Source of the DNA: Candidatus Helarchaeota archaeon
GTDB taxonomy: Archaea > Asgardarchaeota > Lokiarchaeia > Helarchaeales > RDOG01
Direction: 5' to 3'
Assembly (NCBI GenBank): GCA_029838215.1
Contig: JALGVI010000015.1
Location: 1-45,103 of the forward strand
DNA length: 45,103 nt
The position numbers were made by a program, and so were the translations under genes. Under the pieces are notes generated by a model that ran no database searches, was not told the origin of the DNA, and saw nothing but the letters and a program-made list of their open reading frames with translations. This document shows, in pieces, positions 24,746-42,481 of the stretch (its first letter is position 1; each line of letters starts with the position of its first letter).

Positions 24746-25315
24746 ATGGTAGAAGAGACGCAAGTAAAACTCATAATTTTTAGTGCGTTATTAAGTGCAT
24801 TGCATGATATAATGGGAAAAGACGGAAAGAATTCAATCTTGCGCTTTGCTGGCTTATCTGAATACATAGATAAAGAAATTAGTCCGTCAGTTGATGATTC
24901 CATTCCATTCGATGTGGTCAAGAGGTTAATAGATGCCATGCAATCACTGCTGGGACACGGAACAAATGCCATTCTTTATGAATCGGGACGAAAATTTGCG
25001 GTTTACTTGTCTCCTTTTGGATATTCTTTAGAAGAAGTCATTCACAAGCTAGAAAAGTGGTTTGGAGGAAAATGGCAACTTGTTAAGGCAGGTGCCGAAA
25101 ATTCTACCGTCGTGAAGATTGAAAATAATCCGATTTGTCGCGGGTGTCATTCAGACAAACCTTATTGCCACATTGTTAGTGGAACACTTGCCCGAATCCG
25201 TGAGGAAGCAACAGGGGAAAAGAGTTTTGCAAAAGAAATCCGTTGTATAGCAATGGGACATGATGCATGTCAATTTGTAATAAAACCATATAATATGAAA
25301 GGAAAACGCGGCTAG
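24746..25315 (+). CDS. V4R-domain protein (TRAPP/Bet3-fold relative)
   Basis: The V4R (4-vinyl reductase) domain spans roughly residues 55-180. It shows the hallmark Cys spacing C131, C134, C141, C167 and C175 (ICRGCHSDKPYC and later EIRCIAMGHDACQFVI). V4R domains bind small hydrophobic ligands or metal in bacteria; the eukaryotic TRAPP subunit Bet3 has the same fold and takes part in Rab activation. This gene is 13 nt ahead of a Rab-like GTPase, so a GTPase-regulator role is tempting but inferred. The ATG has GTGAGG 7 nt upstream. Residues 1-50 are helical and unassigned. Confidence 0.75.
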   Translation: MVEETQVKLIIFSALLSALHDIMGKDGKNSILRFAGLSEYIDKEISPSVDDSIPFDVVKRLIDAMQSLLGHGTNAILYESGRKFAVYLSPFGYSLEEVIHKLEKWFGGKWQLVKAGAENSTVVKIENNPICRGCHSDKPYCHIVSGTLARIREEATGEKSFAKEIRCIAMGHDACQFVIKPYNMKGKRG

Positions 25316-25328
25316 TGGATGGAATAAC

Positions 25329-25850
25329 ATGGGAAGCAAGTATGTTTTTAAGATAGTCGTATTGGGTTCAGAAGCAGTTGGAAAAACCTCGCTCATCAAT
25401 AGATACGCTGAAAAAAAGTTTACTTCAGAATATCACCCAACGCTTGGAACAAATATCATCATCAAGGAAGTAAATTTGCCCGATATTCAGAGTCAGGTCA
25501 AGTTAATGCTATGGGACATTGCTGGACAACGGAAATGGACGGAGGTTCGACATTTATATTATAAAGGTGCTCAAGGGGCACTTTTAGCATTTGACGTTAC
25601 CAGACCAACTACATACAACGCGATTTCAGAGTGGAATAAAGATCTTGCGGATTTTGTTGGGGAGGTCCCTAAAATCCTGATCGCAAATAAGATGGATTTA
25701 GTTGAAGATATCAAAATAAATGAGACGGAAGGGGAAAATATGGCAAAACAAATTAACGCTTTTGGCTTTCTAATGACTAGTGCTAAAACAGGCGAACGCG
25801 TGAATGACGCATTTGAATCTTTAGCAAAAGAGATAATCAGATCATCATAA
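25329..25850 (+). CDS. Rab-like small GTPase
   Basis: This 173-aa protein is a full Ras-superfamily domain: P-loop G13SEAVGKTS, switch I Thr38 in YHPTLGT, G3 WDIAGQ (62-67), NKMD (120-123) and TSAK (150-153). LWDIAGQRKWTEVRHLYYKGAQGALLAFDVT is close to the Rab pattern. There is no C-terminal Cys motif, so it is not prenylated in the eukaryotic manner. It follows the V4R gene by 13 nt and precedes the roadblock-GTPase fusion by 42 nt. The conserved Gln67 suggests normal GTP hydrolysis. Confidence 0.9.
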   Translation: MGSKYVFKIVVLGSEAVGKTSLINRYAEKKFTSEYHPTLGTNIIIKEVNLPDIQSQVKLMLWDIAGQRKWTEVRHLYYKGAQGALLAFDVTRPTTYNAISEWNKDLADFVGEVPKILIANKMDLVEDIKINETEGENMAKQINAFGFLMTSAKTGERVNDAFESLAKEIIRSS

Positions 25851-25892
25851 ATAATGCTCAATTCTCCAAAAACTATCAGTTAGGTGAAAAAA

Positions 25893-26840
25893 ATGGTCAA
25901 TCTCAACAAATTAAATACGTTACTAAATAACTTTATTGATTCTATTAACATGGTTGAAGCCACGATTCTCATGACTAAAGAAGGGTATATTATCACATCA
26001 ATTGTAAAAGATTTAGGGGAGGAATCGATTGGCGGCGTGACTCAAATCGTTCGATACATTTCCGATGTAATAACATTCGATCCAGCCCTCTCTGAAGAAC
26101 GAGGCATCAAAGAACTTTCTACACCAGAGAAACTTTTCATTTTTAGGCAAGTCGACCCAAAGATCATGTTTTGCGTCATTTGTAATCCACTAATTAATGG
26201 AAAAATCGCAAAAGCTTATTCTGAATTCGTTGCAAAAAAAATTGAACAGCTTCTGGAAGACAAGGACATTCCCTTAGAAATTCCCAAGATGGAACCGGAT
26301 GAAAAAGAAAAGGAAAAGGGCAAAGAATATGTTTTCAAGATTTGTGTCTTGGGTGATCCTGGTGTGGGAAAAACCACGTCCATCATCCAATTTGCACAAA
26401 GCCGGTTTGAGAGCGAATACAAATCAACGATTGGAGTATCAATCATAAAAAATGACCTTAATATCGATGGAGACACAATTCATCTCCAAATATGGGACAT
26501 CGCTGGACAAGAACGATGGGCAGGAATGCGACGCGTTTATTATGCAGGGTCTCTTGGAGCTCTATTATTATATGATGTTACCAGAGTTCAATCTTTTGAC
26601 AACCTTGAAAAATGGGTAAATGAGTTCCAAACGTATACGTCTTCAGAGAATCCATTGCTAATGATTGGTAATAAAATCGATTTAGTGCAAATTCGAAAAA
26701 TATCAAAGGAAGACGGAGAAAAGAAAGCAAGTGAATTTGGAATACCATATCTGGAAACATCAGCAAAAACTGCAGAGAATATTAATAGGGCATATGAAGA
26801 ACTAGCTCGAAGTCTAATTAGAAAAATATCTGAAGAATGA
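25893..26840 (+). CDS. Fusion of a roadblock/LC7-like domain and a Rab-like GTPase
   Basis: Residues 5-122 look like a roadblock/LC7 fold (MVEATILMTKEGYIITSIV, later KLFIFRQVDPKIMFCVICN). A charged linker (about 128-145, rich in E, K, P) leads to a complete Rab-like domain from about 146: GDPGVGKTT, STIGVS, WDIAGQE, NKID and TSAK. Roadblock domains serve as GTPase regulators or scaffolds (Ragulator, MglB), so this places regulator and GTPase in one chain. I chose ATG 25893 because AGGTG lies 6 nt upstream; the GTG at 25884 lies inside that site. It ends 28 nt before the tRNA gene, which is on the opposite strand. Confidence 0.82.
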   Translation: MVNLNKLNTLLNNFIDSINMVEATILMTKEGYIITSIVKDLGEESIGGVTQIVRYISDVITFDPALSEERGIKELSTPEKLFIFRQVDPKIMFCVICNPLINGKIAKAYSEFVAKKIEQLLEDKDIPLEIPKMEPDEKEKEKGKEYVFKICVLGDPGVGKTTSIIQFAQSRFESEYKSTIGVSIIKNDLNIDGDTIHLQIWDIAGQERWAGMRRVYYAGSLGALLLYDVTRVQSFDNLEKWVNEFQTYTSSENPLLMIGNKIDLVQIRKISKEDGEKKASEFGIPYLETSAKTAENINRAYEELARSLIRKISEE

Positions 26841-27024: not shown

Positions 27025-27870
27025 TTAGGAGATTAGGAGGGTTTGTATGAACTCTTTATCAAGATCTAATTTACGGATTCGATCCCAGTCCTTTTTAAGA
27101 TATGGAAATGCCAGTTTTGAAACGATTTCCTTCATTTGATCCTTGAATATTTCTCGCATTAAATCCACGTAGAATCGAAATATTTGAGAGAGTCCTTTAC
27201 GCAGTTCGTGTTCTTTGATGTCTTGTTGAAACACGTTTAGAGTGAGGAGATCCCAGCCTTTTTCTGTATAATTCACGTTTTTAAAAGATTTTGGAAGTAA
27301 TTGCTTGATCGTTTCCATTTTTTGGTCAAGAATTTTTTCTCTACCCTTGACAATCGTATGGGTGACTTTTGATAATAGATGAAGGAGTTGTTGATATACT
27401 TCGATGACATCCATTAATTCTGCAGCTTTTGTGATTTTCTGGGCTTTTTTCCAATCTTGGTAGAGCTCGTCCATTTTTTCCGTGAATACTTCAAACTGTG
27501 ATGTGTTTCCATCCCAATTATCTGAGAATTCGGGATCAAGAACAAATTCAAATTTATCATTGAAGTTAGTTTTTATCACGTTCAATTGCGCGCGGATTTC
27601 ATTGGAAGAATCATCCATCTCGGCTGCCGTGATGAATAATAGGTTTGGATCTTCAATATAAACCCACTTAAGTCCTCCCATTTCAATGCTCTCTATTGCT
27701 TTAAACTCTCGGGCTTTTTGATCGGGAGAGCAAGATATTTCTTCAGCAAACCGATAAAGTGCGGTTAGAAATGAAGTTAAAAGGTCGGGATCGGACACGG
27801 CTTTAGCATATGCGCGGTTAAAGATGTTTCTTCCTGATTTCAAATCTAAAATCCAAACCTCACGAATCAA
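27025..27870 (-). CDS. Longin-like protein with C-terminal helical domain, paralogue 1
   Basis: The first ~120 residues follow a longin pattern: a hydrophobic strand IREVWILDLKSGRNIFNRAYA, a helix LLTSFLTALYRFAEEI, then paired strands IESIEMGGLKWVYIEDPNLLFITAAE and a long helix. Residues 150-281 are helical and unassigned. The protein is an obvious paralogue of 35861-36646, which shares the I-(R/K)-E-(V/L)-W-I start and D-W-x-R-I-(R/K) near the end. The start is TTG 27870 after GGAGATGAT; the paralogue's ATG at the same point supports it. In eukaryotes longin domains act in SNAREs, adaptor complexes and Rab exchange factors. Function here is unknown. Confidence 0.65.
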   Translation of the reverse strand: MIREVWILDLKSGRNIFNRAYAKAVSDPDLLTSFLTALYRFAEEISCSPDQKAREFKAIESIEMGGLKWVYIEDPNLLFITAAEMDDSSNEIRAQLNVIKTNFNDKFEFVLDPEFSDNWDGNTSQFEVFTEKMDELYQDWKKAQKITKAAELMDVIEVYQQLLHLLSKVTHTIVKGREKILDQKMETIKQLLPKSFKNVNYTEKGWDLLTLNVFQQDIKEHELRKGLSQIFRFYVDLMREIFKDQMKEIVSKLAFPYLKKDWDRIRKLDLDKEFIQTLLIS

Positions 27871-27984: not shown

Positions 27985-28470
27985 GTGAAACCAGAAGATA
28001 TTCAATCATACTTGGATGAGAAATTTAGTCGAATTGAAGAGCTTCCGCACACGGCAGATGTAAAATATCGCCTTTTTGGAATGAATCTCGCCGATGCATT
28101 TGAACTGGCAGGATATGTATTCACGGATACGCATGCAGACATATTCTCGGTAAATCCAATAGAATCAATTGAGATTTCAGTTAGTGCAGAGGACTTAGGG
28201 AGTTTACTTTTTGAATTCATCGATGAACTCATTTTCATTTTATCTACTAAATTTCTCTTGATTTCATATTTCGAGAATTTAACAATAAATGAGAAGGATG
28301 AAGGGTTTATTCTTCACACGATTGCTTGGGGGGAGGAGCTTGATCCTTCGAGACATGATTTGAGAACAGAGGTAAAAGCCATGACATATCACGACCTGAG
28401 CATTAAATTTGAGAAGGATAATCAATCGTTATCGGGTCCTGTTTGCATTACCTTGCTTTTTGATATCTAA
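27985..28470 (+). CDS. Archease (RtcB activator)
   Basis: Archease helps RtcB reach guanylylation and turnover in tRNA splicing and RNA repair. The family features are EELPHTADVKYRLFG near residue 20, the acidic pocket including Asp at HTADV, the mid strand ISVSAEDLGSLLFEFIDELIFIL and the late EVKAMTYHDLSI. Length (161 aa) is slightly long because of about 15 extra N-terminal residues. The start is GTG 27985. It lies 280 bp ahead of rtcB on the same strand, the usual partnership. Confidence 0.9.
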   Translation: MKPEDIQSYLDEKFSRIEELPHTADVKYRLFGMNLADAFELAGYVFTDTHADIFSVNPIESIEISVSAEDLGSLLFEFIDELIFILSTKFLLISYFENLTINEKDEGFILHTIAWGEELDPSRHDLRTEVKAMTYHDLSIKFEKDNQSLSGPVCITLLFDI

Positions 28471-28750
28471 AAAAATCAGTCTTTTCATTGAAGGAAACGT
28501 CAGAAATCTGTCTCACAAGTCTTAAATATATTTCTTGATGTATATTTTATCATAAGAGGCATTGGTGCGATAAAGCGACATACTAAGACTAAGCAAGAGT
28601 TTTAAAGAATTACGAAAAAGATAGGAATTAAGAAAATTCTTATTTAAAATCGTTAAAAATAACATCATCTCATCATGTTATTTCACGAATGAGTTGATTT
28701 ACTATTTTATATCGTTCCTGTTGCCTGCATGGATAATGAGGTCACTTGTC

Positions 28751-30280
28751 ATGAGTAGAAGGCATCCAAGAAGAAGAGGAAATAGATATAGAGATAAGTC
28801 CTTTCGAGGTGGAGAAAGGAGAGAGAGACCACCATTTGATGGTCCTATTGATAAGATTGCCGACAATATTTATGAGATTTCGGAGACTTTTCGCCCTGGA
28901 ATGCGAGTTCCCAGCAGGATTTATTGCGATGATGTACTTTTGGAAAAAATGAAGAAGGATAATACTTTAACGCAAGCCACAAACATCACGTTCTTGCCGG
29001 GTATCTATAAATTTTCCATAACTCTGCCCGATGGTCATTCGGGGTATGGGTTTCCAATAGGAGGAGTGGCAGCAACAGATCTTGAAGAAGGAGTCGTATC
29101 TCCTGGTGGAGTTGGTTATGACATCAATTGTGGGGTACGGTTATTAAGGACAAACCTGCAAAAAAAGGAGTTAACGAATTTAAAAGAGTTAATGGAGCTC
29201 TTATTTCGTTCGGTTCCTTCAGGTTTGGGTTCGAAGGGTAAACTCCGACTTACGGTTTCCGAGTTAGATAAAGTCTTACAAACAGGTACTGAATGGGCAA
29301 TTGAAAGGGGATATGGATGGGAGGAAGACGCGATTCACACGGAGAATGCAGGTTGTATCGAAAATGCGAATCCCAGCTTGATTTCTGGTAGAGCCAAGGA
29401 GCGAGGATTGCCTCAGTTAGGAAGTTTGGGATCTGGTAATCATTTTTTAGAAATTCAGTATGTAGACAAGATCTACAATTCAGATGTAGCAACAAAACTG
29501 GGCATTAAAGAAGAGGGTCAGATTATGGTCATGATTCATACAGGAAGTCGTGGATTTGGTCATCAAGTATGTTCGGATTTCTTGCGAATAATGGAAAGAT
29601 CAGTTAGGGATTATGATATAAAAATACCAGATAGGGAATTAGCTTGTGCGCCGATAAAAAGCAAGGAGGGACAACAGTATCTCCAGAGTATGGCTTGCGC
29701 TGCGAATTTTGCATGGGTAAATAGACAGATGATAATGCATTGGGTTCGTGAATCCTTTGAAAAATTATTTCATCAACAAGCAGAAGATCTGGACATGCAC
29801 CTTCTCTACGATGTTGCTCATAACATTGCAAAAATCGAAATGCATGAAATTGAAGGCAAGAAGGTGAAGGTTTGCGTTCATCGAAAGGGTGCCACGCGTG
29901 CATTTCCTGCGGAGCATCCAGAAGTGAACAAGGATTATCGGTCGATAGGACAGCCCGTGCTCCTTCCCGGATCAATGGGAACCGCTTCGTATCTTCTTAT
30001 AGGGGGGAATCGATCAATGGAATTGTCTTTTGGTTCAACGGCTCATGGAGCGGGTCGCGTGTTATCCCGTTCAGCAGCAACAAGAAAATATTGGGGTGAA
30101 AAGGTTCAACAAGAGCTCATGAAGGAAGGAATGGTCATAAAAGCCGCATCAAAGCGTGTATTAAGCGAAGAGGCTCCGGGAGTCTATAAAGACATTGATC
30201 GTGTGGCAAATGTTAGTCACAACTTGGGTATTGCGACAAAAATAGTCAGGTTACGTCCTTTTGGCGTGACAAAAGGCTAA
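28751..30280 (+). CDS. rtcB: RNA-splicing ligase RtcB
   Basis: RtcB joins 2',3'-cyclic phosphate and 5'-OH RNA ends with GTP and Mn2+. The signature SPGGVGYDINCGVRLLRT holds metal-binding Asp and Cys. Later features are GSLGSGNHFLEIQ, MIHTGSRGFGHQV, HNIAKIEMHEI and the guanylylation-site region ending LPGSMGTASYLL, with ATRAFPAEHPEV before it. I chose ATG 28751 because GAGGT lies 8 nt upstream; an earlier in-frame start would add a hydrophobic lead that RtcB lacks. The first ~35 residues (SRRHPRRRGNRYRDKSFRG) are an Arg-rich extension, perhaps RNA-binding. Confidence 0.94.
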   Translation: MSRRHPRRRGNRYRDKSFRGGERRERPPFDGPIDKIADNIYEISETFRPGMRVPSRIYCDDVLLEKMKKDNTLTQATNITFLPGIYKFSITLPDGHSGYGFPIGGVAATDLEEGVVSPGGVGYDINCGVRLLRTNLQKKELTNLKELMELLFRSVPSGLGSKGKLRLTVSELDKVLQTGTEWAIERGYGWEEDAIHTENAGCIENANPSLISGRAKERGLPQLGSLGSGNHFLEIQYVDKIYNSDVATKLGIKEEGQIMVMIHTGSRGFGHQVCSDFLRIMERSVRDYDIKIPDRELACAPIKSKEGQQYLQSMACAANFAWVNRQMIMHWVRESFEKLFHQQAEDLDMHLLYDVAHNIAKIEMHEIEGKKVKVCVHRKGATRAFPAEHPEVNKDYRSIGQPVLLPGSMGTASYLLIGGNRSMELSFGSTAHGAGRVLSRSAATRKYWGEKVQQELMKEGMVIKAASKRVLSEEAPGVYKDIDRVANVSHNLGIATKIVRLRPFGVTKG

Positions 30281-30482: not shown

Positions 30483-30941
30483 ATGGGTACTAAAAACATA
30501 GAAGAGAAATTAAAAAAAGTTCTCATCGAATTAATGGAAAAAACTTCTATCTACAATGCCGTGGTAGTGGATAAAAACGGGTTGCCCATCACGTCGTGGG
30601 ATGGAAAAAAAAATCAACCAATGGAAAGTGAAATTGAAATATTGGCTGCAGGTATTAGTTCTAGCATTCTGAATTTAAGCAAAAACATAAACCACATGAT
30701 GCGGATTAATCACGGTGATTTACAACAGATGATCATCGAAAATAAAAAGGGAAAGACAATTATTTGTGAAGCGGGTGAGAACTCACTAATAATTAGCAAT
30801 GTACCAGCGGATGCGTCATTAGGCATTACATTGCTTGCTTTGAAAAAAGCCGCAAAAGACGTTAGCAAGTTACCTGTCGGTCCTAAAGAGGTAAAAAAGA
30901 TTCCTGCAGATTTTGATTTTGAAATTCCCACTATTGATTAG
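30483..30941 (+). CDS. Roadblock/LC7-domain protein
   Basis: The 152-aa protein is a clear roadblock/LC7 domain (about residues 5-125): IYNAVVVDKNGLPITSW, EIEILAAGISSSILNLSK, GDLQQMIIENKKGKTIICEAG, LIISNVPADASLGITLLALKKA. A 25-residue charged tail follows. Such proteins form homo- or heterodimers that regulate small GTPases or serve as scaffolds. GGTGG lies 5 nt before the ATG. It is the first gene of a tight operon (8-nt and 5-nt gaps) with a helical protein and the RWD/RING-like protein. Confidence 0.88.
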   Translation: MGTKNIEEKLKKVLIELMEKTSIYNAVVVDKNGLPITSWDGKKNQPMESEIEILAAGISSSILNLSKNINHMMRINHGDLQQMIIENKKGKTIICEAGENSLIISNVPADASLGITLLALKKAAKDVSKLPVGPKEVKKIPADFDFEIPTID

Positions 30942-30949
30942 GTGATTTC

Positions 30950-31237
30950 ATGAAAAGTTCACGAGATATCTTGCAGTCATTTTTTGAGCTTTCTGCTTCA
31001 ATGGAAGAGAATCCAGAAATTAAGAAAAGGATTGATGCTTTTATTGCAACGTTCAATCGCAGGGATCTTCGAAAAGCCAGTACGCGCATCCGAATTTGGA
31101 AGTTTTTAAACGATCTTCGAACTAAAGCCAGTCCAGACTTGAAAGATGGTTTTGAAGGTATTATGGCAGATTTGACAGTAAAATGGGAAGGCTCCCTTAA
31201 CCGGGCCTTGCGTGAAAACAAAATACGCGAAGAGTAA
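30950..31237 (+). CDS. Small helical protein of the roadblock-RWD operon
   Basis: I do not recognise a family. The 95 residues are charged and predicted alpha-helical throughout (SRDILQSFFELSASMEE, RRDLRKASTRIRIWKFLNDLRT, a final Lys/Arg-rich helix). No membrane segment or metal site is seen. GGTGATTTC precedes the ATG. Its position, 8 nt after the roadblock gene and 5 nt before the RWD gene, suggests all three products act together, perhaps as an adaptor. Confidence 0.65.
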   Translation: MKSSRDILQSFFELSASMEENPEIKKRIDAFIATFNRRDLRKASTRIRIWKFLNDLRTKASPDLKDGFEGIMADLTVKWEGSLNRALRENKIREE

Positions 31238-31242
31238 CTCTA

Positions 31243-32526
31243 ATGGAACCAATAGAACTTATTTTTAAATTACGTGAGGGAATAGACGAAACTAACTTCC
31301 AAATAAGCGATTTAAAAGACCAGCTTTCAGCAGGAAAACTATCCATTAAAGAACATGAAAAAAAGAAAAAGAAGTTAGAGAAATATATTGCTGAATTAAA
31401 TGCAAGAATTGATGTAATCAAGAAGAAGTTTTCACCATTACAAAAATACGTGTTGAACCAGACCGATGAGGTTCTCGAACATTATCAAGCAGAGTTGGAT
31501 CTCACGCAAATTGGCATTTTAAAGGTTCTTTTTCTGTTGGATCAAGAAACGTATTTCATAGTTCCCGTAGATTTTCGCGACCCAAAACATGTAAAAGTCG
31601 AATTTCCAACCGAGTTGAGTGATTTAATCGGATCGGCAGATGAATTGCAAGCATTAAAAGAAGTTCCCGCAGATGGATTCCAAGTCAAAGTCATCCTTGA
31701 TGAAATTCAAAGCAGGTTAAATTCGAAACAAGACATGTTCAATGAAATCGACTTGCTTTCCGAGCAATTTACCATTTCAAAAACATCTTCAAAAACACGG
31801 GTTGAGGTAACGCTCTATGGACTTGACATGCAGGAATTCTCTCTTTTCGTGGATGTCGGACCATACCCTGATCCTCCCGTACTTCAATTGACACCATCGT
31901 TACAAAAGCACGTGTCGCTGAACGCATTACGAATCTTGAAAAATTGGGATCCGCAAAGGTTTCACGTGTATAACGTAATACAAGAGATTTCGTTGATTTT
32001 AGATAAAAAATTGCGACTTAATAGGGAGATGGAATTATTTGAGAAGTTTAAGATTCCTGCAACTTTGGATGAAACGAATGGCATCATAAAAGTAGTGTTG
32101 CAAGAGAGTCCGCAAAGTCCTCAAATCACATTCCTCATCAAGATACCTCCAAATTATCCACACTCACCCCCATTAGTCGAACAAGTAAACCCCATGTCAA
32201 ACGAGGCATTGAATGAACAAATTCTTACCCGATTGAATCAGGCCACGTCGGAATATTTAGAATTACAAAATTTTGCAGAGGTCTTTTCAGAGATCTTGGA
32301 CATCATGAAAGAACATTCAGAATACGTGTGCGTTGAATGTAAGCAATTCAAGTGCCCAACTTGCGGAAAAAACTTGTTTAGTTCTATTGCAGGAGTCATT
32401 GGAGAAAATAATTGTTATCGAAGAACCAAGTGTTGTGGTGCCACGTTACATGAGTGCTGTTATAGGTTCTTTGTTGGACGAGACCATAAGTGCCCTGCAT
32501 GCGGAGCTGCTATTAGTCGCCTCTAA
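31243..32526 (+). CDS. Protein with three RWD/UBC-like repeats and a C-terminal RING-like zinc finger
   Basis: Residues 1-70 are a coiled coil. Three similar units follow. Unit 1 (88-160) has VPVDFRDPKHVKVEFPTEL. Unit 2 (185-255) has FVDVGPYPDPPVLQLTPSL. Unit 3 (278-357) has LIKIPPNYPHSPPLVE. The Y-P-x-x-P-P turn after paired strands and the closing helix are the RWD/UBC fold signature. No catalytic Cys of an E2 is seen. The zinc region has C363, C366, C371, C374, C391, C397, C398, H403, C405, C406, C417 and C420, enough for a RING-like cross-brace plus a zinc knuckle. Eukaryotic RWD-RING proteins include E3 ligases and GATOR subunits. Function here is inferred only. Confidence 0.7.
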   Translation: MEPIELIFKLREGIDETNFQISDLKDQLSAGKLSIKEHEKKKKKLEKYIAELNARIDVIKKKFSPLQKYVLNQTDEVLEHYQAELDLTQIGILKVLFLLDQETYFIVPVDFRDPKHVKVEFPTELSDLIGSADELQALKEVPADGFQVKVILDEIQSRLNSKQDMFNEIDLLSEQFTISKTSSKTRVEVTLYGLDMQEFSLFVDVGPYPDPPVLQLTPSLQKHVSLNALRILKNWDPQRFHVYNVIQEISLILDKKLRLNREMELFEKFKIPATLDETNGIIKVVLQESPQSPQITFLIKIPPNYPHSPPLVEQVNPMSNEALNEQILTRLNQATSEYLELQNFAEVFSEILDIMKEHSEYVCVECKQFKCPTCGKNLFSSIAGVIGENNCYRRTKCCGATLHECCYRFFVGRDHKCPACGAAISRL

Positions 32527-32600: not shown

Positions 32601-33017
32601 TTATCCGCCCATATCAAGCCCTAATTCTTCTCCCACGATCTCTAAGATGGAGCGAAGAGCCATGGCTTTTGCCATTTCACCAACGATTTTAATATCGCCA
32701 GCCATATATGCAGAAGCAGTATCAACTTCACCAGTTAAAAGTCCAGAAGCAACATCTTCATTCATTTGGACTGTTACGGTGGGATTGTCAGGCATTCCCT
32801 CATCAGCTTTGAGTTTGCCGTCCTTAATCTCCATGTATGCAGCAGTAAGTCCTGGAACTTCCATGGCAATGATGACGTCTTCTTGATCTTCTAATTCTTC
32901 TTGAAGATCTTCGTTAGAAGCTGCTACTTCTTCGACGGCTTTTAAGAACAGGGGGAGTTTATTAGGATCGAATTGTTTTGATTCGATTAATTTTTTAACT
33001 TCGTCAACTGCACCCAT
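32601..33017 (-). CDS. SCP2-like sterol/lipid-carrier domain protein, paralogue 1
   Basis: The 138-aa acidic protein is an SCP2-type domain. Residues 45-130 match the pattern with VIIAMEVPGLTAAYMEIKDGKL, NPTVTVQMNEDVASGLLTGEVDTASAYMAGDIKIVGEMAKAM. SCP2 domains bind lipids or acyl chains in a hydrophobic tunnel. It is a close paralogue of 34526-34939. GGTGA lies 6 nt before the ATG. A 16-bp palindrome stands 69 bp upstream. Lipid carriage in this cell is inference; the hot-dog hydratases may share a lipid pathway with it. Confidence 0.8.
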   Translation of the reverse strand: MGAVDEVKKLIESKQFDPNKLPLFLKAVEEVAASNEDLQEELEDQEDVIIAMEVPGLTAAYMEIKDGKLKADEGMPDNPTVTVQMNEDVASGLLTGEVDTASAYMAGDIKIVGEMAKAMALRSILEIVGEELGLDMGG

Positions 33018-34525: not shown

Positions 34526-34939
34526 TTATGTCCCGATATCCAAACCTAGATTTTCACCAACAATTTCGAGAATAGAACGGATGGCAAGTGCTTTAGCCAT
34601 CTCACCCGTGATTTCAATGTCACCTGAGGTATATGCGGTGGCAGTGTCAAGCTCGCCACTCATGAGATTTTGAGCAACTTGTTCGGACAATCGAATAGTG
34701 ACCGTGGGTTGTTCATGCATTCCTTCGCCCGCAGTAAGTTTGCCAGCTTTTATCTCAAGATAGGAAGATAAAACGTCTTTAACATCGAGTTGTATGACAA
34801 TATCGTCCTGTTCTTTTAATTCATTCGTTAGTTCTTCATTTGAATTTGCTATTTCTTCTATGGCTTTCATCAACAATGGGATGTCTTTAAGTTGATAATC
34901 CTTGTTCTTAATTTTCTCTTTAATTTGGTCTACAGCCAC
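34526..34939 (-). CDS. SCP2-like sterol/lipid-carrier domain protein, paralogue 2
   Basis: It matches paralogue 1 along its length: VIQLDVKDVLSSYLEIKAGKL, QPTVTIRLSEQVAQNLMSGELDTATAYTSGDIEITGEMAKALAIRSILEIVGENLGLD. The two share the helix A-(I/L)-R-S-I-L-E-I-V-G-E near the end. The start is GTG 34939 with GGAG about 10 nt upstream; an ATG is not available nearby. The acidic surface and tunnel-forming hydrophobics are kept. It lies 121 bp behind the start of the amidotransferase gene. Confidence 0.8.
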   Translation of the reverse strand: MAVDQIKEKIKNKDYQLKDIPLLMKAIEEIANSNEELTNELKEQDDIVIQLDVKDVLSSYLEIKAGKLTAGEGMHEQPTVTIRLSEQVAQNLMSGELDTATAYTSGDIEITGEMAKALAIRSILEIVGENLGLDIGT

Positions 34940-35665: not shown

Positions 35666-35860
35666 CACGTTATTTCTAGTATTATTTTTGAAATTCCGGC
35701 TCAAAAAGTTCCGTAAAAGCTTACGATACAAAATTCGAGAAGGAAAATCAAAATACAAAAAAAAATTTCAAATTTAAGTGTTGTTTTTCCAGAGCATGAT
35801 TTATTAATTATGAATCATGACGAAGTAAAATAAAATAAAATTTATGAAGTCGTGAGAACG

Positions 35861-36646
35861 ATGATTAAAGAATTATGGATTGTCGACAAGCAATCGGGAA
35901 CCACTCTCCTCCAGCGTGGTTACGGGCAGACTCAGACGAGTGAACGTTTAATGTCCGGTTTTTTACAAGCAATTTACGGACTTTATCAGTATGCGGAGTC
36001 GGAGTTGGCATCAGCTGAGGGTGGTAAGGGCTTGGAAAGCATAAACATGGTCGGCATGAGATGGTTATATGAAGAGAAAAAAGGATTGATTTTTATTGCT
36101 GCCACGGACAAGGAAACTCAATTGGAATTATTGCTAAGTCAATTGAACTTGATAGCTGACACGTTTATTGAAAAATTCGGCTCGCCGTTTGAAGCACTTT
36201 ATGGGGGGGGCTTGGAAAAATGGCTTGAAGGTGATTTTTCTCCATTCCTACTTGAATTGGATGATATTGTCTCGCAATGGGATCAGATGAAGCGTGTTGA
36301 GAATGCGGCAAAGGTCATGGATTTTCTTGACGTTGTTCAAAACGTCATGGAGCGATTCCAGAACTTCCCAGGTTTTGACACATTAATTGAAGGGGGGCAT
36401 CTCGACATTTTGGGACAGGCATTTGCAGATGGGAATTGGGACATGTCTTTTCTTTCAAGCATAGATGAATCCGACTTGCGAGAAAAGATCGAACGGATCT
36501 TCGGTCATATAATGGAATTCTTCATTTCCCAGGGCTTAGACGTTATCACGTTATGCAGGACATATCTTCATCCGTATTTCAAAACAGACTGGACGCGGAT
36601 AAAAGAAACGGGCTTGGACGATCTTTTAATCCAATTATTCATATAG
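35861..36646 (+). CDS. Longin-like protein with C-terminal helical domain, paralogue 2
   Basis: The protein starts MIKELWIVDKQSGTTLLQRGYG, then a helix (LMSGFLQAIYGLYQYAES) and strands LESINMVGMRWLYEEKKGLIFIAATD, the same longin-like order as the 27025-27870 gene. Its C-terminal helical part ends YLHPYFKTDWTRIKETGLDDLLIQLF, also shared. I chose ATG 35861 since the paralogue starts at the same residue; the GTG at 35852 is only the ribosome-site neighbourhood. It stands alone, 18 nt from the convergent zinc-ribbon gene. Confidence 0.65.
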   Translation: MIKELWIVDKQSGTTLLQRGYGQTQTSERLMSGFLQAIYGLYQYAESELASAEGGKGLESINMVGMRWLYEEKKGLIFIAATDKETQLELLLSQLNLIADTFIEKFGSPFEALYGGGLEKWLEGDFSPFLLELDDIVSQWDQMKRVENAAKVMDFLDVVQNVMERFQNFPGFDTLIEGGHLDILGQAFADGNWDMSFLSSIDESDLREKIERIFGHIMEFFISQGLDVITLCRTYLHPYFKTDWTRIKETGLDDLLIQLFI

Positions 36647-41887: not shown

Positions 41888-42481
41888 ATGCCTTCAAGAA
41901 CCGTTTCTGGAGAACTTTACTTTAAAATTGTATATTACGGACCGGAATTGGCGGGAAAGACCACGTCAATTAAATGGATACATGAAAAGGAAGAGGGAAT
42001 TCGAACAGGAAATCTCACGTCAGTAAAAGGTGGCAAGGATGCAGGATTTTTTGACCGGATGAGCGCACAAATTGGCAAGTTGAAATTTCAGGTCTGGTCT
42101 GTGGCAGGTCGGAGTAAGGGTCTTCAATCACTACGTAAGGTAATTCTTGAGGGTTGTGATGGCTTGATTTTTGTTTGGGATGTCCATAAAGATACGTGGA
42201 AGGAGAATTTGGCTTCTATTAATGAATTGATATCAATTTTAAAAGGTAAATTAATCGAGATGCCAATTATCGTCATGGTTAACAAGATGGATTTGGCCGA
42301 TCAAGATATTGTTGATAGGAAGTCCATTGAAAAGATCTTTAAAAAAGCAAAACTCAATCACGCGCAATTCGTTGAAACCGTGGCGATTTCAGGAGAAAAC
42401 GTGAAACAAGCATTTACAGCTTGTGCCAAGGCCATCCTAACGGCATATTCAGAACAAAAACAAAAACCAAATAAGAATTAG
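41888..42481 (+). CDS. MglA/Arf-like small GTPase with altered switch II
   Basis: The 197-aa protein has a P-loop G18PELAGKTT, NKMD at 132-135 and AIS at 166-168. FFDRM followed by IGKLKFQVWSVAGRSKG and CDGLIFVWD follows the MglA pattern. As in MglA, the Asp of D-x-x-G is replaced (Ser71), and the usual catalytic Gln after the Gly is Arg75. MglA-type proteins work with roadblock partners (MglB) in polarity; the roadblock proteins in this window are candidate partners. It precedes the FAD oxidoreductase gene by 59 nt. Confidence 0.85.
   Translation: MPSRTVSGELYFKIVYYGPELAGKTTSIKWIHEKEEGIRTGNLTSVKGGKDAGFFDRMSAQIGKLKFQVWSVAGRSKGLQSLRKVILEGCDGLIFVWDVHKDTWKENLASINELISILKGKLIEMPIIVMVNKMDLADQDIVDRKSIEKIFKKAKLNHAQFVETVAISGENVKQAFTACAKAILTAYSEQKQKPNKN

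Follow-up and report, generated by a model that had tools for sequence, protein, structure and literature searches.

The gene trio and its first two products

The window, that is the whole analysed stretch of 45,103 nucleotides from a Candidatus Helarchaeota archaeon (genome G000; G001 to G003 denote three further genomes used for comparison), carries three closely spaced forward-strand genes that encode a roadblock protein, a small helical protein and a 427-aa protein with three RWD units and a RING-like end (Table 1). A sequence-only reading had described these genes with gaps of 8 nt and 5 nt and had proposed an archaeal complex linking GTPase signalling to a RING-like module, by comparison with Ragulator and GATOR2. 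An open reading frame check confirmed the coordinates and both gaps, and the coding status of the trio is supported by an orthologous trio in G001, with identities of 48%, 50% and 32% in gene order. The overall interpretation of that reading was partly supported.

Table 1. Features of the trio and its surroundings, with positions in the window unless another contig is named; residue ranges refer to the 427-aa protein.
Feature	Position	Strand	Basis
V4R / TRAPPC3-like protein	24746-25315	+	V4R 5.7e-16; conserved neighbour
Rab-like small GTPase	25329-25850	+	Ras 1e-46; 54-55% to G001 and G003
N-terminal extension + Rab-like GTPase fusion	25884-26840	+	Ras 7.8e-52 at residues 152-311 of the fusion; orthologue in G003
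Longin-like protein	27025-27870	-	Weak FUZ/MON1/HPS1 longin match; 56% to G001
Archease	27985-28470	+	Archease 2.5e-32; conserved neighbour
RtcB	28694-30280	+	RtcB 4.4e-173; conserved neighbour
Roadblock/LC7 protein, 152 aa	30483-30941	+	Robl_LC7 1.8e-9; LAMTOR5 3e-4
Five-helix protein of a new family (95 aa)	30950-31237	+	Model pLDDT 81; 50% identity to G001
Type B protein of 427 aa with three RWD units and a RING-like end	31243-32526	+	Profiles, AF2 model, fold matches
N-terminal helical hairpin, residues 3-61	31249-31425	+	AF2 model; alignment
RWD unit 1, residues 65-175	31435-31767	+	AF2 model
RWD unit 2, residues 176-268, YPDPP turn	31768-32046	+	AF2 model; sequence
RWD unit 3, residues 269-359, YPHSPP turn, Pfam RWD	32047-32319	+	Profile, AF2 model, sequence
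RING-like zinc end, residues 360-427, degenerate (C395T, W407Y, E365, basic residue missing past the final Cys)	32320-32523	+	
Type A triple-RWD RING gene, E1-like gene, nucleotidyltransferase gene	G000, contig C155 (L056 7013-9575)		

The Pfam match of the first gene product satisfies the curated profile for the Roadblock/LC7 domain and bears out the earlier assignment. Roadblock chains in the PDB match it at 2.7e-10, the LAMTOR5 match is weak, and orthologues in G001 and G003 share 48% and 36% identity, respectively. The 95-aa protein is likewise helical as described, with a single-sequence model that consists of five helices; it matched no family among Pfam or NCBIfam profiles, and a structure search with the model returned no significant fold match. 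Across 228 genomes of the phylum, this helical family occurs in only three (G000, G001 and G003), and in all three carriers the gene adjoins the orthologous roadblock gene, even in G003, where it is inverted.

Fold and domain order of the 427-aa protein

The third gene product exceeds the curated cut-off for Pfam RWD (1.7e-5), and a structure prediction recovered the RWD fold in three units, in agreement with the sequence-only reading. The AF2 model, built from an alignment with 31 homologues that left out the type B relatives discussed below, has a mean pLDDT of 88 and comprises a two-helix N-terminal hairpin, three strand-rich E2-like repeats connected by long helices, with approximate unit boundaries, and a Cys-rich end. 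In the latter, pLDDT values lie mostly between 70 and 85 and fall below 50 at residues 381-387. The coiled-coil hairpin is common to the copies from the window, G001 and Sigynarchaeota. Two of the proline-rich turns reported earlier are present as claimed (Y208-P-D-P-P212 and Y305-P-H-S-P-P310), whereas the third, at residues 110-122, retains only P114; RWD unit 1 nevertheless appears in the model. No cysteine precedes residue 363, and the cysteine-free RWD units are thus unable to act as E2 enzymes.

In a Foldseek search of solved structures, FANCL ranked first (1.7e-7 over 398 alignment columns, almost the full length; crystal structure 3k1l at 3.6e-5), and the matches included BRE/BRCC45 as a chain of the BRCA1-A complex (6.5e-6) and Listerin as a chain of the RQC complex (1e-4). 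Further matches were to Mediator chains, KNL1 and numerous E2 enzymes; some chain names are our reading of the titles of complexes. TM-scores were low for the whole chain (ca. 0.2) and reached 0.4-0.5 on the target for single-domain targets, which we attribute to a flexible arrangement with differing angles between domains. At the level of Pfam profiles, UQ_con and RWD matched all 32 family members and UBC_like, a family that we take to be associated with Listerin, matched 26. Weak matches were found to FANCL_d1 in four members (best 9e-4), FANCL_d2 in one (5.5e-4) and BRE in a few; the FANCL_d1 and FANCL_d2 matches come from homologues only, and no FANCL family exceeded its curated cut-off in the window protein. 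A profile of the zinc end searched against solved structures was led by RING ligases (Arkadia 1.3e-4, RBX1 6e-4). On the basis of these fold, family and zinc-end matches, the protein is best described as a predicted multi-RWD RING protein that follows the FANCL order of E2-like fold, double RWD and RING.

Comparison with the individual systems refines this description. Three E2-like or RWD units followed by a RING are shared with FANCL, the Fanconi anaemia E3 that ubiquitylates FANCD2/FANCI with UBE2T, but the present family is archaeal, begins with the coiled-coil hairpin, has an extra CxxC in its RING spacing and lacks a FANCL_C profile match, and the window copy in addition misses RING residues. 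The C-terminus of Listerin (LTN1) likewise places RWD before RING, consistent with the UBC_like and fold matches, yet Listerin contains one RWD unit rather than three and a HEAT solenoid that is missing here. BRE/BRCC45 of the BRCA1-A and BRISC complexes resembles the family in its tandem non-catalytic E2-like domains and is not known as a RING protein.

The proposed resemblance to GATOR2 was not supported: the closest folds are FANCL, BRE and Listerin, and we rejected GATOR2 as it is absent among the Foldseek matches listed. A nutrient-sensing complex of the Ragulator/GATOR2 type, with roadblock heterodimers on Rag GTPases and WD40-RING subunits, would accommodate the LAMTOR5 match of the roadblock protein and a Rag-like GTPase encoded at position 41888 of the window. 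However, none of the trio proteins contains a WD40 repeat or beta-propeller of the kind found in WD40-RING subunits, the nearby GTPase is Rab-like, and WD40 was seen only beside one Sigynarchaeota homologue, which renders this idea very improbable. We assign a similarly low likelihood to the zinc end being a GTPase-binding module of the Rubicon-homology type instead of a RING. The Rubicon-homology domain binds Rab7 in eukaryotes, weak RH_dom matches occur in 20 of the 32 members (best 4.6e-5), and roadblock and Rab genes lie nearby; against this, RING ligases lead the zinc-end profile search, with no Rubicon chain among the best 60 matches.

Two paralogous types and the ubiquitin-like system

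Homologues were found in 27 of 60 near genomes. Searching the 228 genomes of the phylum, we obtained matches spanning the RWD units and the zinc end only in the class Lokiarchaeia (Loki-, Hel- and Sigynarchaeota) and partial RWD-type matches in two genomes outside it, which supports an Asgard setting for the combination of three RWD units and a RING-like end. An alignment of the type A members retrieved 38 related loci, the window protein alone as query retrieved none, and a mixed alignment contained no conserved stretch. In many Lokiarchaeota members, an additional N-terminal RWD/UBC unit brings the number of units to four. The family appears undescribed: a literature search for Asgard archaea with RWD or FANCL, the scope of which left out bioRxiv and many subscription papers, returned no description of it. 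Contig WJJB01000336.1 (L107), titled Bathyarchaeota, also carries the family, groups with Sigynarchaeota and is probably misnamed. A neighbour of about 1045 aa conserved in Lokiarchaeota was set aside as uninformative about the family, being isoleucyl-tRNA synthetase-like by sequence. The WD40 gene that adjoins a single Sigynarchaeota homologue (L059) has no visible counterpart at its related loci, L157-L159.

In a tree, type A stands apart from the type B lineages, which comprise the window copy with that of G001 (support 100/99) and those of G002 with G003; long branches in this tree make deep placements unsafe. The type B proteins of G000 and G001 are 32% identical; the corresponding values are 56% (type A), 70% (E1) and 48-50% (roadblock and helical proteins). 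Compared with type A and E1, these values indicate that the window gene evolves fast, under looser or changed constraint.

The two types also differ in genomic context. Type A directly adjoins genes for a ThiF-family E1-like protein and a nucleotidyltransferase, in the same order in each of the three genomes G000, G001 and G003, whereas type B is unlinked to the ubiquitin system. The earlier connection to ubiquitin is therefore supported only for the RWD-RING family, through the E1-linked type A paralogue, and not for the window copy, which lacks E2-binding features (see below). Type A might act as a ligase or ligase scaffold in an Asgard ubiquitin-like pathway. On contigs C112, C122 and C161, the genome of the window encodes E1-E2 pairs, JAB and RING proteins and a UBL candidate with GGF at its end; the JAB, RING and UBL assignments were made by reading sequences. 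The individual sets are E1/E2/mini-RING (L090), UBL/E1/E2/JAB/TM-RING (L091) and E2/JAB (L092). These clusters are comparable to the archaeal E1/E2/RING operon of C. subterraneum, in which the E3 is a small RING-finger protein, srfp, with RING E3 activity (PMC5654768). An archaeal family with FANCL domain order, one branch of which lies beside an E1, contrasts with that small described ligase and would imply either that complex multi-RWD RING scaffolds are pre-eukaryotic or that they originated in parallel.

The Cys/His-rich end noted in the sequence-only reading is real. Ten ligand-type positions are invariant over 18 aligned homologues and one further position is near-invariant; relative to the eight zinc ligands of a cross-brace, the family thus has 11 conserved positions, of which the window protein lacks one, and the C-terminal part is RING-like. 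At the missing position the window protein has T395, next to C397, where all 17 others have Cys. Within the same alignment, E365 precedes the second Cys where all others have I, L or V, and Y407 replaces a residue that is Trp in 16 others and Phe in one. Two residues after the last Cys stands A422, where every type A member has K or R. An aliphatic residue, a Trp and a basic linchpin at such positions serve E2 binding in eukaryotic and archaeal RINGs (PMC5654768). Mapped by analogy onto the variant RING, in which the first CxxC can be equated with the canonical RING pair only tentatively, these three residues are present in type A and lost in the window copy. Because of these losses, ligase activity of the window copy is doubtful, and the missing E2-binding signature together with the fast evolution makes a RING-derived adaptor more likely than an active ligase.

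We accordingly regard it as unlikely that the third gene product is an active ligase of the RING type that serves an Asgard ubiquitin-like protein and that the roadblock-helical pair would direct to GTPase-marked sites or supply with a GTPase substrate. Such a role would fit the family architecture and fold, the RING-ligase matches of the zinc end, the E1-linked paralogue, the complete E1/E2 sets in the genome and the precedent of the small archaeal E3, and the sister type B copy in G001 retains CSIC, the ligand Cys and W. It is at odds with the window copy itself, in which one ligand and all three E2-contact residues are replaced.

GTPase regulators around the roadblock-helical pair

The surroundings of the first two genes link the trio to GTPase signalling, as had been proposed: besides the roadblock gene itself, genes for a Rab-like GTPase and for V4R/TRAPPC3-like and longin-like proteins lie close by. 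The V4R gene is directly followed by the Rab-like GTPase gene in all four Helarchaeales genomes, adjoining the S13 ribosomal operon in G002. In the three genomes in which the contig reaches far enough (G000, G001 and G003), archease, RtcB, the Rab-like GTPase and V4R are found near the roadblock-helical pair; the longin-like gene is also present in both G000 and G001, and G003 shares the GTPase fusion with G000. Since the cluster is largely conserved, it supports a GTPase-related role of the pair. Tran et al. (2024) reported that GTPase genes of the Asgard archaeon MK-D1 are generally not in operons with roadblock, longin or TRAPPC3 regulators (PMC10933270). The same kinds of proteins occur here, but the V4R-GTPase pair is clustered with further regulators, and the arrangement is informative for this reason: it offers a testable pairing of GTPase and regulator, which the MK-D1 survey found hard to predict from genome layout (PMC10933270).

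A functional analogy is provided by MglB/RomY, a bipartite roadblock GAP in which a roadblock protein and a second protein act on a Ras-like GTPase (PMC9481161). The predicted system would share the roadblock protein, the second protein and a Ras-like GTPase target, with the 95-aa protein as a putative counterpart of RomY by analogy in function and GTPase-regulator activity as a prediction.

The trio as a widespread unit, by contrast, was not borne out when other Asgard genomes were searched. G001 has all three genes, so that the complete set is confined to two genomes from two genera of one family; the roadblock-helical pair extends to a third genus (G003), where it is rearranged, and elsewhere the RWD-RING gene is unlinked to it. 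In G003 the type B gene is on a separate contig and has a double-RING gene as its neighbour, and it has such a neighbour in G002 as well. In the product of this neighbour (L037 5856-6950 and L038 4549-5676), a helical part precedes a zinc ribbon and a pair of RING-like modules. G000 and G001 are broadly collinear over many genes, with UbiA inserted just upstream of the trio in G001. Since the trio occurs in only two genera, within this collinear stretch, its genes could have stayed side by side through descent and not for a functional reason.

These observations make it possible, if less than probable, that the first two genes form a GTPase regulator pair of MglB-like roadblock protein and helical co-factor, and that the RWD-RING gene is a mere neighbour, perhaps partnered with a double-RING protein. 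Such a separation agrees with the free-standing pair in G003, the double-RING neighbours in G002 and G003, the conserved GTPase-V4R cluster and the collinearity. It sits less well with the 5-nt spacing in the window, the gene order that remains unbroken in G001 despite the UbiA insertion, and the result that no full-length double-RING orthologue was found in G000.

The explanation that we tentatively prefer as a whole is a FANCL/Listerin-like family whose window copy became an adaptor recruited to the GTPase-regulator pair. The family would be built like ligases of this type, with an RWD tandem that binds partners and cannot carry ubiquitin, followed by a RING-like end. As a fast-evolving type B paralogue, the window copy would have become positioned behind the roadblock-helical pair in family f1. 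Roadblock dimers and the helical cofactor may bind the neighbouring, V4R-linked Rab-like GTPase in the manner of MglB-type regulators. With its coiled coil as anchor, the RWD protein might then form a platform or effector arm of the resulting complex, as an adaptor more probably than as an active ligase. A more far-reaching version, to which we give little credence, would unite the Rab-like GTPase, the V4R, longin and roadblock proteins that regulate it and the FANCL-like scaffold of the ubiquitin pathway in one switchable Helarchaeota complex and place the family at the archaeal root of the eukaryotic multi-RWD RING proteins FANCL, Listerin and BRE.

Further genes were noted in the window. 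Two similar SCP-2 sterol-transfer-like genes (32601-33017 and 34526-34939) flank a class II glutamine amidotransferase gene, two related longin-like proteins with weak FUZ/MON1/HPS1 longin matches (27025-27870 and 35852-36646) flank the region, and the small GTPase encoded at 41888-42481 matches Gtr1/RagA at 8e-11.
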